A stretch of DNA of 64,000 nt from Chloroflexota bacterium (GTDB lineage: Bacteria > Chloroflexota > Anaerolineae > Aggregatilineales > J027), in the NCBI GenBank assembly GCA_013112715.1, contig JABFGB010000006.1, positions 1-64,000 on the forward strand, read 5' to 3'. Below the pieces are notes generated by a model. That model saw only the letters and a list, made by a program, of their open reading frames with translations. It was not told the DNA's origin and did not search any database. Shown piece after piece: positions 6,656 through 51,688 of this stretch. The number at the start of each line of letters is the position of its first letter. Position 1 is the first letter of the stretch. Made by a program: the position numbers and the translations under genes.

Positions 6656-7513
6656 CTATTGCAATCGCCCCAATTTTTCTGGATTGACCACAAAACGCAC
6701 GGCTTGGATTTGTGAATCGCCCACATCTACGGACATGACGCCCACGAGTTTACCCGCATCATCTCGAACCAGTACCGAGGGCCAGCCATTGATTTCAGCG
6801 ATCTCTGCCCCGTACTGTTCGCGCCCTTGAATCGCCAATAGCACCCTAGCCACTTTGTCGCGGTTGTAAATCGGCAGACGCGCCGCTTGAACCACCCCAC
6901 CGCCATCTGACCAAAGGGTGACATTTTCGGCGAGGACATCCATCAATTCGTCTAAATCACCCGAACCAACGGCCTGCATAAATTTGAGTAAAATGCGCTC
7001 ATGTTCTTCCTTGCTCGTTTTGAAACGCGGACGGTTAGCGGCGAGATGCTGTTTAGCACGATGGAATAATTGACGACAGGCGGCCTCTTCTTTACCGACG
7101 ATTTGCGAGATTTCATCATAGCCGTAATCAAAAACCTCGCGCAGCAAAAACACCGCCCGCTCGATGGGGGTTAGATTTTCTAGCAACATCAAAAAAGCCA
7201 TCGAAATAGACTCATGCTGGGTTACGATATGGAGCGGATCGAGGGTTGCCGCGTTGTCTAAGTGGGTTGGCAAGGGTTCTGGCAGCCACGGGCCATAGTA
7301 GGTTTCGCGTTTTTCTTGGGCGGATTTTAGACGGTCAAGGCACAGGCGGGTAATGACGGTGGTCAAAAAGGGCTTCATGGACTGGACACTTTCGGCAGTG
7401 GCTTGATAGCGCAGATAGGTTTCCTGCACCATATCTTCGGCCTCCATGACACTGCCCAACATGCGATAGGCAATTGAAAAAAGCAGCGGACGATAACTTT
7501 CAAATGTGTCCAT
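6656..7513 (-). CDS. ECF41-type RNA polymerase sigma factor with SnoaL-like C-terminus
   Basis: 285 residues. Sigma region 2 (YRPLLFSIAYRMLGS, AEDMVQETYLRY) and region 4 (LTPIERAVFLLREVFDYGYDEI, then LFHRAKQHL) are followed by a ~115-residue extension of the NTF2/SnoaL type. Three hallmarks of the ECF41 group are present: WLPEP in the linker, DGGG in the extension and NPEKL near the C-terminus. In this family the extension acts in place of a separate anti-sigma factor and modulates core binding. The usual neighbour (a carboxymuconolactone decarboxylase, oxidoreductase or epimerase) is absent. An ECF41-like promoter lies 40 bases upstream, implying self-activation. Confidence 0.93.
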   Translation of the reverse strand: MDTFESYRPLLFSIAYRMLGSVMEAEDMVQETYLRYQATAESVQSMKPFLTTVITRLCLDRLKSAQEKRETYYGPWLPEPLPTHLDNAATLDPLHIVTQHESISMAFLMLLENLTPIERAVFLLREVFDYGYDEISQIVGKEEAACRQLFHRAKQHLAANRPRFKTSKEEHERILLKFMQAVGSGDLDELMDVLAENVTLWSDGGGVVQAARLPIYNRDKVARVLLAIQGREQYGAEIAEINGWPSVLVRDDAGKLVGVMSVDVGDSQIQAVRFVVNPEKLGRLQ

Positions 7514-19230: not shown

Positions 19231-19843
19231 AAAAACAACCTTCGACAATGTAGTGGCAACCGATGTCACCTTTGAAGATTATTTAGCACATTACGCGGCT
19301 GACTATTATGAATGGTCAGATGGGATGGTTATTAAAATGTCTCCGATTCATGATCGGCATGATGAACTTACGCGCTTTTTAGCCATCTTTTTTGAGTCGT
19401 ATTTTGAACAGAAGCCTATTGGGATTGTACGCCAGCAGCCATTTGTCATGAAAATGCCAGCGATACGGGTCGCCAGAGAGCCTGATTTACAAATCATCCT
19501 GCAAACCAATCCACATCCCTACACCCCAACTTTTATGAATGGGCCAGCCGATATTGTCATCGAAGTGGTATCACCGGAGAGTGTCGAACGCGATTACGAA
19601 GATAAACTTAAGGAATATCAAAAGGGCGGCGTACCTGAATATTGGATTTTTGACCCGATGCAGTTTACCAGTCGTTTTTACCTGTTGGTGGATGGTAAAT
19701 ATCAATTACAGGATGTGACCGAAAATTATCATACCCCTCGCCTGCCCAAATTGGTGTTGCATATCCCAATACTATGGGAGCGCCCTTTACCCGGCCCACT
19801 AGCAACCGCGCTGAAAATTCAGGAGATGCTGGCGGCTGAATAA
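19223..19843 (+). CDS. Uma2-family (DUF820) restriction-endonuclease-fold protein
   Basis: 206 residues. It has the PD-(D/E)xK-like core of the Uma2 family: AREPDLQIIL followed by DIVIEVVSPESVERDY and a Lys-Tyr helix KLKEYQKGGVPEYWIFDP. Such proteins are abundant in Cyanobacteria and Chloroflexota, often in many copies; their substrate is not established. The start is ATG 19223, with CGGAGGA 8 bases upstream, inside the end of the previous gene. Confidence 0.87.
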   Translation: MAEKTTFDNVVATDVTFEDYLAHYAADYYEWSDGMVIKMSPIHDRHDELTRFLAIFFESYFEQKPIGIVRQQPFVMKMPAIRVAREPDLQIILQTNPHPYTPTFMNGPADIVIEVVSPESVERDYEDKLKEYQKGGVPEYWIFDPMQFTSRFYLLVDGKYQLQDVTENYHTPRLPKLVLHIPILWERPLPGPLATALKIQEMLAAE

Positions 19844-19848
19844 TCGGC

Positions 19849-20364
19849 CTACCATCCTAACTCTTGCTGCAACTGCTCGATGGTGTGGTAAATAATAGGG
19901 CATAACCCCACTCCACCTAAAATTTCCTCAATCGTCCAGCGAAAATCCGGTGTAAAAACAGGATACATGCGACAACTTTCGGGCCGATGTTCATAGACAC
20001 TGCATAATTTACCCTTCAAAAATTGACAGGGCTTGTGTCGAAAAACACCCCACTCCCCATTTTCATCGGCACGGTCACGGTCAACCGTGTCGTTTAATAA
20101 TCGCTCCAACGGGATAAATGAACCAGCGGCAAGGCGTTCGGCATCGGATTCGGTTAAATAGACATCCAGCGAACGGCAGCAGTTAGCGCACTGCTTACAA
20201 TCAATCGCAGCAATAATCGGGGCGGCAATTTTTTCGACAAGGGCATCCAATTCAGCATCGGTGCGTTCGTCCAATTCGACAAAATAGCGGAAGGCGTCGT
20301 AATCGTCAGCACGATTGATGGCTTCGGCGGCGATAAAGGCTAGGTCAATTGGTAGTAGAATCAT
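19849..20364 (-). CDS. YkgJ-family cysteine cluster protein
   Basis: 171 residues. The Cys pattern CKQCANCCRSL (about 60-70), followed by KPCQFLKGKLCSVYEHRPESC, is the CxxCxxCC...C..C..RP..C signature of the YkgJ/UPF0153 family, proposed to bind zinc or an iron-sulfur centre. The biochemical role is unknown. It starts 6 bases after the stop of the upstream gene, so it is part of a three-gene minus-strand unit. Confidence 0.85.
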   Translation of the reverse strand: MILLPIDLAFIAAEAINRADDYDAFRYFVELDERTDAELDALVEKIAAPIIAAIDCKQCANCCRSLDVYLTESDAERLAAGSFIPLERLLNDTVDRDRADENGEWGVFRHKPCQFLKGKLCSVYEHRPESCRMYPVFTPDFRWTIEEILGGVGLCPIIYHTIEQLQQELGW

Positions 20365-48992: not shown

Positions 48993-49144
48993 TCATGTCC
49001 CTAGATGGCTTCTGTTAGACGATTTAGCGACTGGCCCCCGCCGTTTGGTTTCGTATTGCATGTTTTGGACGATAATAAAATCAAGAGCAAGATTTATTAC
49101 TTAAAATTGGGAAATTAGCAGACTCAACTTAAGGAGGGCCTATC

Positions 49145-50110
49145 ATGAAAAAGAGGGCCTTAATCTTGGTGGGGGTACTCATCTCAGTTCTTGTGGCATG
49201 TGCAACAGGAGGCAGCGATACCAGCGAAGAGTCATCCATTTCTGATTCATCACGCCCCAATTCTGCGATTGTCGGCAATGAGCAACCACCAAGCGTTGAC
49301 GAACCTGTTGCCTTTACCAATGCAGATACAACAGGCGAGCAACCCTCAGAATTGCAGCAGCAAAATCGCTTGGTGATCAAAGATGCCTCCATCACTATGC
49401 AAGTGGAAGACGCTGAAGCGACGATGGAAAGTATTATGGGGTTGGCTGAAGGCGGTGGGGGATGGATAGTCAATTCATCCACGAATCAATATGCCGCTTG
49501 GAATGGCGCTTTGCTGACGCAAGGCAATATAACCTTTCGTATACCATCTGAACGTTTTAATGAGACCCTAAATCAGGTACGCCAACTTGGGCTTGAGGTT
49601 ATTTCCCAACAAATCTCCGGGCAAGATGTAACTTCTGAATATACCGATATTCAAAGCCAGATTCGTAATCTACAGGTCGCTGAAGCTCAGTTACAAGAGA
49701 TTATGGATTCAACGAGCACTGTCACCGATGTGTTGACTGTCCATAATCGGCTCATTGAAGTTCGTGGGCAAATTGAGACATTACAGGGGCGCTCCAATTA
49801 TCTTGAACAAGCATCGGCCTTTTCAACCATCACCGCTACCTTAGTCCCCGTTGAACCGAAAAGACCGGATAACGAGTCGAAATCTAGAGTTGACCAAAAC
49901 GATAATTGGAATCCAAGCAAGACGGCAGAAAAGGCATTTGATGTTCTTGTGACGGGCCTTCAAATAAGTGCAGACGCCGTTATATGGATGGTGATTTGCG
50001 GGTTACCGTTCGCGGTTTTTGGGGTGCCAGCATGGTTTGGATATCGGCGTTATCAACGGAGAAGAAATATCAGGACAACGGTTTTGTCTAACCCTGCCGA
50101 CAGCGAATAA
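49145..50110 (+). CDS. DUF4349-type lipoprotein
   Basis: 321 residues. Lipoprotein signal ending LVAC (Cys19), an acidic Ser-rich linker, then the DUF4349 domain: LVIKDASITMQVEDAEATME, GNITFRIPSERFNETLNQVR, and a coiled segment (DIQSQIRNLQVAEAQLQEIM). A C-terminal membrane span (VIWMVICGLPFAVFGVPAWF) and a basic tail follow. Function of the family is unknown; it is anchored at both ends of the domain. AAGGAGG lies before ATG 49145. Confidence 0.88.
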   Translation: MKKRALILVGVLISVLVACATGGSDTSEESSISDSSRPNSAIVGNEQPPSVDEPVAFTNADTTGEQPSELQQQNRLVIKDASITMQVEDAEATMESIMGLAEGGGGWIVNSSTNQYAAWNGALLTQGNITFRIPSERFNETLNQVRQLGLEVISQQISGQDVTSEYTDIQSQIRNLQVAEAQLQEIMDSTSTVTDVLTVHNRLIEVRGQIETLQGRSNYLEQASAFSTITATLVPVEPKRPDNESKSRVDQNDNWNPSKTAEKAFDVLVTGLQISADAVIWMVICGLPFAVFGVPAWFGYRRYQRRRNIRTTVLSNPADSE

Positions 50111-50188
50111 ATTGCTCCATTAGAATCCAAATGTTAAACTCCCCGCCGACTAATTAATCGTATAAAACCACTTGGCGGGGAGCAATTT
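50109..50188 (+). promoter_or_regulatory. Leader hairpins covering the amidohydrolase ribosome binding site
   Basis: The Shine-Dalgarno GGGGAG (50177-50182) is the 3' side of a perfect 9-bp stem CTCCCCGCC (50139-50147) / GGCGGGGAG (50174-50182). A second upstream arm AAATTGCTCC (50109-50118) is perfectly complementary to GGAGCAATTT (50179-50188), which runs up to the ATG. The two pairings share 50179-50182, so they are alternatives or can stack in part. No T run follows. It could control translation. Confidence 0.5.
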
Positions 50189-51550
50189 ATGCCGACCCTT
50201 CTCGTTAAAAATATTCACACCCTTGTGACGATGGATGTCACCCGCCGCGAAATCCCCAACGGCGCGATTCTAGTGCGCGATAACGTGATCGAGCAGGTGG
50301 GTACAACCGCCGAACTTCCCTCGACTGCTGACGAGGTGCTGGATATGAAAGGCCATCATGTTGTCATACCGGGGTTGGTGAATACCCATCATCATCTTTA
50401 TCAAAGCCTGACCCGCGTTATCCCATTGGGCCAAAATTATGAATTATTTGACTGGCTGAAAACCCTATATCCGATTTGGAAAGGGTTGCATCCCAAAGCC
50501 ATCAAGGTCAGTACCCAAATTGGTCTAGCAGAATTGATGTTGTCTGGTTGCACCACCGCCAGCGATCACCTCTATATATATCCCAATGGCTGCACGCTTG
50601 ATGACCAAATTGAATCGGCTCAAGCCATCGGGATGCGCTTTCATGCCAGTCGTGGCAGCATGAGCGTTGGGGAGAGTCAAGGTGGGCTGCCGCCAGATTC
50701 GGTGGTCGAAAAAGAGCCGTTTATCCTCAAAGACTCACAGCGCTTGATTGAGACCTATCACGATCCCAAGCGTTATGCCATGCTGCGGATTACCCTTGCG
50801 CCATGCTCGCCCTTCACAGTCTCGGTAGATTTGATGCGGGAATCGGCAAAAATGGCCCGCAGTTATCCCGCCGTCCGCCTCCATACCCATCTCGCTGAAA
50901 CTAAGCCAGATGTTGCCTACAGTATCGAAAAATTTGGCCTTGCCCCCGGTGATTATGCCGAAGAAGTTGGGTGGGTTGGCGAAGATACATGGCACGCGCA
51001 TTGTGTCCATCTCAGCGACGACGCCATTGAAAAATTTGGGCGCACGGGGACGGGGGTGGCCCACTGCCCGACCAGCAATCTACGTCTCGGTAGCAATATC
51101 GCACGGGTACGCAAAATGCTAACACACGGGGTCCCAGTTGGGTTGGGGGTAGATGGTTCGGCCTCCAATGACAGTGGGCATCTGTTGGCTGAAGCACGGA
51201 TGGCAATGTTGAGCGCACGGGCAGGCGGTGATCCGGCGGGTCTGACGGCACGCGAGGCGCTGGAATTAGGCACACTTGGCGGGGCGCGGGTCTTGGGTCG
51301 TGACGACATCGGCAGCATTGCACCGGGCATGGCGGCGGATTTTATCGCCATCAATGTCAACACTGTCGCGTTTGCTGGGGCACATCATGATATTGTTGCT
51401 GCGGTAGTGTTCTGCACCCCTGCCACTGTGGATTACAGTGTTATCAACGGGCGGGTGGTCATCCGCGAAGGCCACATTACCACATTGGAAATTGAACCCG
51501 TCATTGAACGGCACAATCAAATCGCACGAGCGTTGTTCAACGGCGAATGA
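50189..51550 (+). CDS. Amidohydrolase, 8-oxoguanine deaminase / AtzB-TrzN-like
   Basis: 453 residues of the metal-dependent amidohydrolase superfamily: HxH in NTHHHLYQSL, then RLHTHLAETKPDVAY, WHAHCVHLSDDAI and the metal Asp in GVDGSASND. The Q-S-L after the HxH motif and GVDGSASND are typical of the 8-oxoguanine deaminase and hydroxyatrazine aminohydrolase branch, which deaminates purine-like or triazine rings. The exact substrate cannot be fixed by reading. It is cytoplasmic, with no signal peptide. Upstream leader structure is described separately. Confidence 0.85.
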   Translation: MPTLLVKNIHTLVTMDVTRREIPNGAILVRDNVIEQVGTTAELPSTADEVLDMKGHHVVIPGLVNTHHHLYQSLTRVIPLGQNYELFDWLKTLYPIWKGLHPKAIKVSTQIGLAELMLSGCTTASDHLYIYPNGCTLDDQIESAQAIGMRFHASRGSMSVGESQGGLPPDSVVEKEPFILKDSQRLIETYHDPKRYAMLRITLAPCSPFTVSVDLMRESAKMARSYPAVRLHTHLAETKPDVAYSIEKFGLAPGDYAEEVGWVGEDTWHAHCVHLSDDAIEKFGRTGTGVAHCPTSNLRLGSNIARVRKMLTHGVPVGLGVDGSASNDSGHLLAEARMAMLSARAGGDPAGLTAREALELGTLGGARVLGRDDIGSIAPGMAADFIAINVNTVAFAGAHHDIVAAVVFCTPATVDYSVINGRVVIREGHITTLEIEPVIERHNQIARALFNGE

Positions 51551-51659: not shown

Positions 51660-51688
51660 TTGTCAAGCCGTTGACCCTGCGTTATACT
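51660..51688 (+). promoter_or_regulatory. Promoter of nuo operon
   Basis: TTGTCA (51660-51665), 17-base spacer, TATACT (51683-51688). The leader to nuoA is about 87 bases. Confidence 0.6.

Follow-up and report, generated by a model that had tools for sequence, protein, structure and literature searches.

A promoter-embedded hairpin predicted to shield an 8-oxoguanine deaminase gene from read-through translation

Introduction

In T4 gene e and in I-TevI, long RNAs hide the start site of the gene, and a promoter placed in the 5' strand of the hairpin yields an open RNA, with a 100-fold effect reported for gene e; the same device is also reported for I-TevII, I-TevIII, T4 segB and Aeh1 mobE in the available text of PMC3014915 and PMC2988022. 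We treat the T4 gene e type as a mechanism class and not as a homology family. A related arrangement occurs in the transposase leaders of IS10 and IS50, mobile elements whose start site is masked solely on transcripts coming in from outside and whose hairpin arms derive from the terminal repeat of the element.

Compact genomes pack their genes head to tail, so that an independently controlled gene needs protection from the transcription of its neighbour. A literature search recognised no bacterial chromosomal example of such a hairpin, although examples may exist in print; the available text of PMC8450116 and PMC5793797 does not describe the promoter-embedded hairpin mechanism. Here we analyse a leader in the window, the whole 64,000-nucleotide stretch under study, which belongs to a 5.55 Mb genome; the closest named assemblies to this genome are from Chloroflexi/Anaerolineae.

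Results

The leader lies between a DUF4349 gene and a gene whose product, scoring above the curated NF006055 cut-off, is by this measure an 8-oxoguanine deaminase, which bears out the name in the initial annotation (Table 1). The gene order is folD (a name assigned from its sequence), a 220-aa gene, DUF4349, the leader, the deaminase gene with its ATG at 50189, and then NADH dehydrogenase subunit-like genes; the 220-aa gene matches Zn-dependent phospholipase C below threshold (20.6 bits, cut-off 26.8). In several Anaerolineae, folD precedes the deaminase gene. Among close relatives, the slot directly before the deaminase gene (48993-50188 in the window; L038-L041) varies in content, holding DUF4349, a DinB-like gene, an opposite-strand ORF or nothing.

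Table 1. Coordinates of the deaminase leader and the genes on either side of it in the window
Feature	Position	Strand	Remarks
DUF4349 gene	49145..50110	+	ORF; PF14257, 145.9 bits (cut-off 27.7); co-directional, possible source of read-through RNA
Outer left arm AAATTGCTCC	50109..50118	+	Complementary to 50179-50188; overlaps the predicted -35
Predicted -35 TTGCTC (TTGCCC in L041)	50112..50117	+	Spacing of the promoter class; 3/6 consensus letters
Predicted extended -10 TGTTAAACT (TGTTACACT in L041)	50132..50140	+	Class match; RNA start near 50147 predicted from spacing
Inner left arm CTCCCCGCC	50139..50147	+	Shares bases with the end of the -10; also overlaps the predicted RNA start
Inner right arm GGCGGGGAG	50174..50182	+	Holds the Shine-Dalgarno; 9/9 pairs kept in L041
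8-oxoguanine deaminase gene, 453 aa	50189..51550	+	NF006055, 684.4 bits (cut-off 532); PF01979

The Shine-Dalgarno is carried by a stretch that runs up to the ATG (GGCGGGGAGCAATTT, 50174-50188). The initial annotation had described two segments complementary to overlapping parts of this stretch, one of them starting in the preceding stop codon, and had proposed that they form alternative stems which both bury the ribosome binding site. The complementary segments are confirmed, the outer arm does begin within the TAA stop of DUF4349 (50108-50110), and the Shine-Dalgarno is indeed buried, with a pairing of 0.99 in the computed fold of the long RNA. Read from the sequence, the inner complement can be extended to CTCCCCGCCGA/TTGGCGGGGAG, giving 11 pairs with one G-U, and the outer one is perfect over 12 nt (50107-50118 with 50179-50190). 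In the minimum-energy fold, the inner stem coexists with most of the outer stem, indicating that they do not represent two mutually exclusive states; in this model, the stems mostly nest, compete over a few bases only and are not clean alternatives.

The RNA of the window leader folds with a z-score of -3.33, and 1 of 200 shuffles folds equally well. In a sample of 559 Shine-Dalgarno-bearing gene starts drawn from 864 kb of this genome, a simple stem score places the inner stem second, and the cost of opening the region from the Shine-Dalgarno to the AUG, 20.0 kcal/mol, ranks fifth (median 7.2, sd 3.4). The stem is thus not chance-like, and start-site hairpins of this strength are rare in the genome (about 1% of gene starts have a comparable opening cost) but not unique. 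A search of the genome with the leader found just one copy, the other matches being 14-24 nt long, and a repeat element was rejected for this reason; an integron attC-like site (GTTAAAC near 50134) was set aside by eye. The top stem score among the 559 gene starts belongs to a different locus (L146 near 7100-7175; G000:C2:127100-127175), where two attenuator-like hairpins in tandem, with a possible 14-bp long-range alternative pairing, accompany a T run just before an ATG; a search of this locus found no Rfam family at threshold.

The deaminase gene is present in the four other genus members searched, at 94-98% protein identity, and a homologous leader is found only in G002 (L012/L041), being absent from three of the five genus members. 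The gene upstream of the homologous leader resembles the DinB superfamily, and its end, at L041:2912, is separated from the arm by 16 nt. In G001 and G003 (L039, L040) the deaminase gene closely follows the 220-aa gene without this leader, G004 (L038) has an ORF on the opposite strand ahead of the deaminase gene, and the DUF4349 gene is absent at the corresponding place in all of G001-G004. Translational coupling to DUF4349, suggested in the initial annotation on the grounds that a ribosome finishing that gene would cover the first arm, is therefore unlikely, both because the upstream gene differs in G002 and because a ribosome stopping at 50110 would, given its footprint, fall short of 50139.

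Between the window and L041, all inner-stem pairs are kept, one of them by a double change from G-C to A-U, and the loop of L041 is 7 nt shorter. Sliding the inner-stem partner by 1-3 columns lowers the pairing to 44-67%, and a shuffle control of the double change, uninformative with two sequences, gave 248/500. In the outer stem, 2 of 10 pairs are broken in L041, one pair becomes G-U, 18 of 20 cells are kept and no double change is found. Compensatory change, named by the initial annotation as the check on its leader, is hence seen in one pair of the inner stem and is missing from the outer stem, which speaks against a switch between alternative stems.

Of the five genomes, G002 stands furthest apart, with about 83% DNA identity over five genes versus 90-92% among the rest; since this most distant member is the other carrier, the leader may go back far in the genus and have disappeared from three members, or it may have been transferred horizontally. 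A tree of the five members, rooted on the distant L042 (represented by its deaminase gene only), has supports of 29-51, so that the argument on age relies on the pairwise distances. A covariance model (R1), built from just the two sequences and searched with stricter filters against 154 genomes of the order, returned 2 matches, both already known, and none in the other 152 genomes.

These comparisons bear on the alternative that the hairpin has no regulatory role and arose by chance or as a terminator-like structure behind the upstream gene. In the window genome and in G002 alike, the gene ahead of the hairpin points in the same direction, the rarity of comparable opening costs still leaves about 1% of gene starts with one, and three relatives lack the leader altogether. 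Against a neutral origin, the pairing persists between the most diverged genomes sampled from the genus, no T run follows the stem and a terminator scan, which allows loops of 3-8 nt only, did not list the hairpin. As an intrinsic terminator the structure fails, having a loop of 22-26 nt and CAATTTATG after the stem instead of a T run. We regard the absence of any role as unlikely.

A different role for the left arms is suggested by the DNA in which they lie. The promoter predicted in the window and in L041 reads TTGC(T/C)C, 17 nt, TA(A/C)ACT with a preceding TG. The longest unchanged block between the two leaders, AGAATCCAAATGTTA, adjoins the left arm, is ungapped and lies outside the loop; the region 50122-50138 as a whole is nearly identical and ungapped, whereas the loop carries a 7-nt gap. 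Of 102 distinct deaminase leaders, 18 carry the class TTG-N3-N13..15-TGnTAnACT in the sense direction (16 of 100 once the window and L041 are set aside) and none in antisense, with 0.065 expected by shuffling; orthologous leaders often show TTGACA, 17 nt, TG(C/T)TA(A/C)ACT. The extended -10 alone is found in 21 of the 102 leaders in sense and in 2 in antisense (1.19 shuffled, 1 read backwards), and a looser promoter pattern, counted without a shuffle control and partly in genomes already included above, in 22 of 30 leaders from two class families. Ahead of genes in the window genome at large, the extended -10 by itself shows just a modest excess (12 in sense and 8 in antisense against 5.5 shuffled); combined with TTG at the right distance, it gives 4 sense and 1 antisense against 0.1 shuffled.

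The promoter class thus recurs, and its putative member at 50112-50140 overlies the arm but is weak at its -35. A promoter scan of the window did not list it and listed instead CCGACA-18-TAGAAT (50097-50126), the RNA of which would include the left arm. If the promoter at 50112-50140 is real, its RNA starts near 50147 and the arm at 50139-50147 is promoter DNA; with the left arms inside the predicted promoter, the deaminase gene's own RNA should be devoid of them. At 51660-51688, a promoter-like TTGTCA-17-TATACT, likewise of the TAnACT type, precedes the NADH dehydrogenase-like genes. In other deaminase leaders (L096-L099, L104, L105 and many of L181-L209), a repressor-operator-like palindrome TTGTC(A/T)GACAA, presumably GntR-like, lies beside the promoter; the window leader has no such palindrome.

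The conserved block also enters into a second alternative, a switch acting on the main transcript in response to a ligand, to temperature or through translational coupling, in which the two stems would alternate as the initial annotation had proposed. Strict conservation of the block between the arms could mark a binding site, the stable burial of the Shine-Dalgarno and the double change in the inner stem would be expected of such an element, and the upstream promoter-like site could provide a transcript that includes the left arm. The block, however, fits the spacing of the promoter, the outer stem is not fully kept in L041 and the upstream gene is not conserved. The initial annotation had noted no resemblance to the purine riboswitch consensus, and an Rfam search of 49900-50400 agrees, finding neither a purine riboswitch nor any other family at gathering score; the sole match listed was SAM-SAH on the opposite strand (11.5 bits versus 40, E 6.7), and L041 gave no family at threshold. 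A switch appears distinctly unlikely. Least probable is a DNA operator at which a dimeric repressor would recognise two copies of CTCCCC(G/A)CC, one at the -10 and one at the Shine-Dalgarno: the left half does overlie the -10 to +1 region, and a protein site, too, would be expected to change symmetrically in its two halves, but the half-sites are spaced by 35 bp in the window and by 28 bp in L041, spacings that do not differ by a full turn of the helix, and 864 kb of the window genome contain 12 half-sites, of which 10 lie inside genes and 2 are the window palindrome read on both strands, leaving none elsewhere between genes, so that the operator of a regulon fails on both recurrence upstream of other genes and spacing.

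Loss of the left arms has a large computed effect on the start site. Opening the region from the Shine-Dalgarno to the AUG costs 18.3 kcal/mol on read-through RNA of the window and 9.0 on RNA starting at 50147; for L041 the costs are 19.4 on the long RNA and 10.1 kcal/mol on the own RNA. The own-RNA values are near the usual range of the genome, and the Shine-Dalgarno is still predicted to be paired on these RNAs, more weakly, with a mean of 0.96 in the window, where early codons take part, and 0.70 in L041. In the 46 promoter-bearing leaders among 123 deaminase leaders, the long-minus-own difference has a median of 0.3 kcal/mol, and the largest values are 11.7 (L089), 9.5 (window), 9.3 (L012, the G002 leader) and 6.4 (L100). 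Within its own genome, the window gene ranks second among the 98 genes that match a loose promoter definition; when all 559 genes are cut at -42 regardless of promoter, it comes fifth; four other genes therefore lose as much or more on cutting at -42, by chance or by design. Third among the 98 is a gene at L167 (near 19790-19870; G000:C13, gene start 39869), in which CATTTGAGGC in the promoter-like spacer pairs with GCCTCAGATG covering the start codon, a geometry resembling that of the window leader.

L089 and L100 are Longilinea assemblies in which 112 nt separate the end of folD from the ATG of the deaminase gene; they are close relatives without a clear Shine-Dalgarno and are counted as one case. 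An arm in the spacer between -35 and -10, TTTCAGGAGT in L089 and TTTCAGGGGT in L100, pairs just before the ATG with 16 and 11 pairs, respectively (L089:2880-3003; L100:2870-3003), the longer arm of L100 touching the last base of the -35. The shared part keeps 10 of 10 pairs with one double change, for which the shuffle control is equally uninformative (253/500). This arm would be absent from the own RNA and is unlike the window arm in sequence, which suggests that the same solution arose twice at the deaminase gene, in the window genus and in Longilinea. Among the leaders from the two class families, the relatives of Longilinea do not share the arrangement.

Discussion

Our preferred reading, to which we assign a probability of about 55%, is that a promoter-embedded hairpin silences read-through RNA and that the deaminase gene is served by its own predicted promoter. 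The DNA of this promoter, from the -35 to the extended -10, would encode the 5' half of the hairpin. An RNA reading through from DUF4349 would contain both halves, fold and support poor translation of the deaminase, whereas RNA from the gene's own promoter, starting near 50147, would lack the left arm and have a start site that is far cheaper to open. Because one half of the hairpin sits inside the predicted promoter, the Shine-Dalgarno would be hidden only on messages derived from the neighbour. In this way, the hairpin would tie deaminase output to its own promoter and shield it from neighbouring transcription. The predicted anatomy is that of T4 gene e and I-TevI, and we therefore prefer protection from read-through to the three alternatives of a switch, an operator and a chance hairpin; by this analogy, the read-through hairpin of the purine deaminase gene would be an instance of a mechanism already known from phages.

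If protection from read-through is correct, the leader represents a cheap chromosomal solution that requires neither a terminator nor a regulator protein, as one stretch of DNA serves both within the promoter and as half of the hairpin, and promoter-embedded hairpins can be scanned for computationally. A buried Shine-Dalgarno then need not mean a riboswitch when the other half of the hairpin precedes the true RNA start. A broader reading, which we advance only tentatively, is that start-site hairpins embedded in promoters, acting to silence read-through RNA, have evolved repeatedly in bacterial metabolic genes that follow unrelated operons, and at least twice in the deaminase gene, in this genus and in Longilinea. 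The T4 gene e device would then have a counterpart that recurs on bacterial chromosomes.

Like purine and 8-oxoguanine riboswitches, the window leader is a structured leader before a purine-related gene; unlike them, it scores below every Rfam gathering threshold. In contrast to IS10 and IS50, no mobile element was recognised at the leader, which is single copy. Compared with T4 gene e and I-TevI, where a phage late promoter is used and the device times expression, the window has a predicted housekeeping-type promoter and a metabolic gene; its leader has no sequence relation to the phage leaders and is known here from sequence alone. What the window is predicted to share with T4 gene e and I-TevI is the arrangement itself, a Shine-Dalgarno or AUG buried on the long RNA and an own-promoter RNA that lacks the 5' strand.
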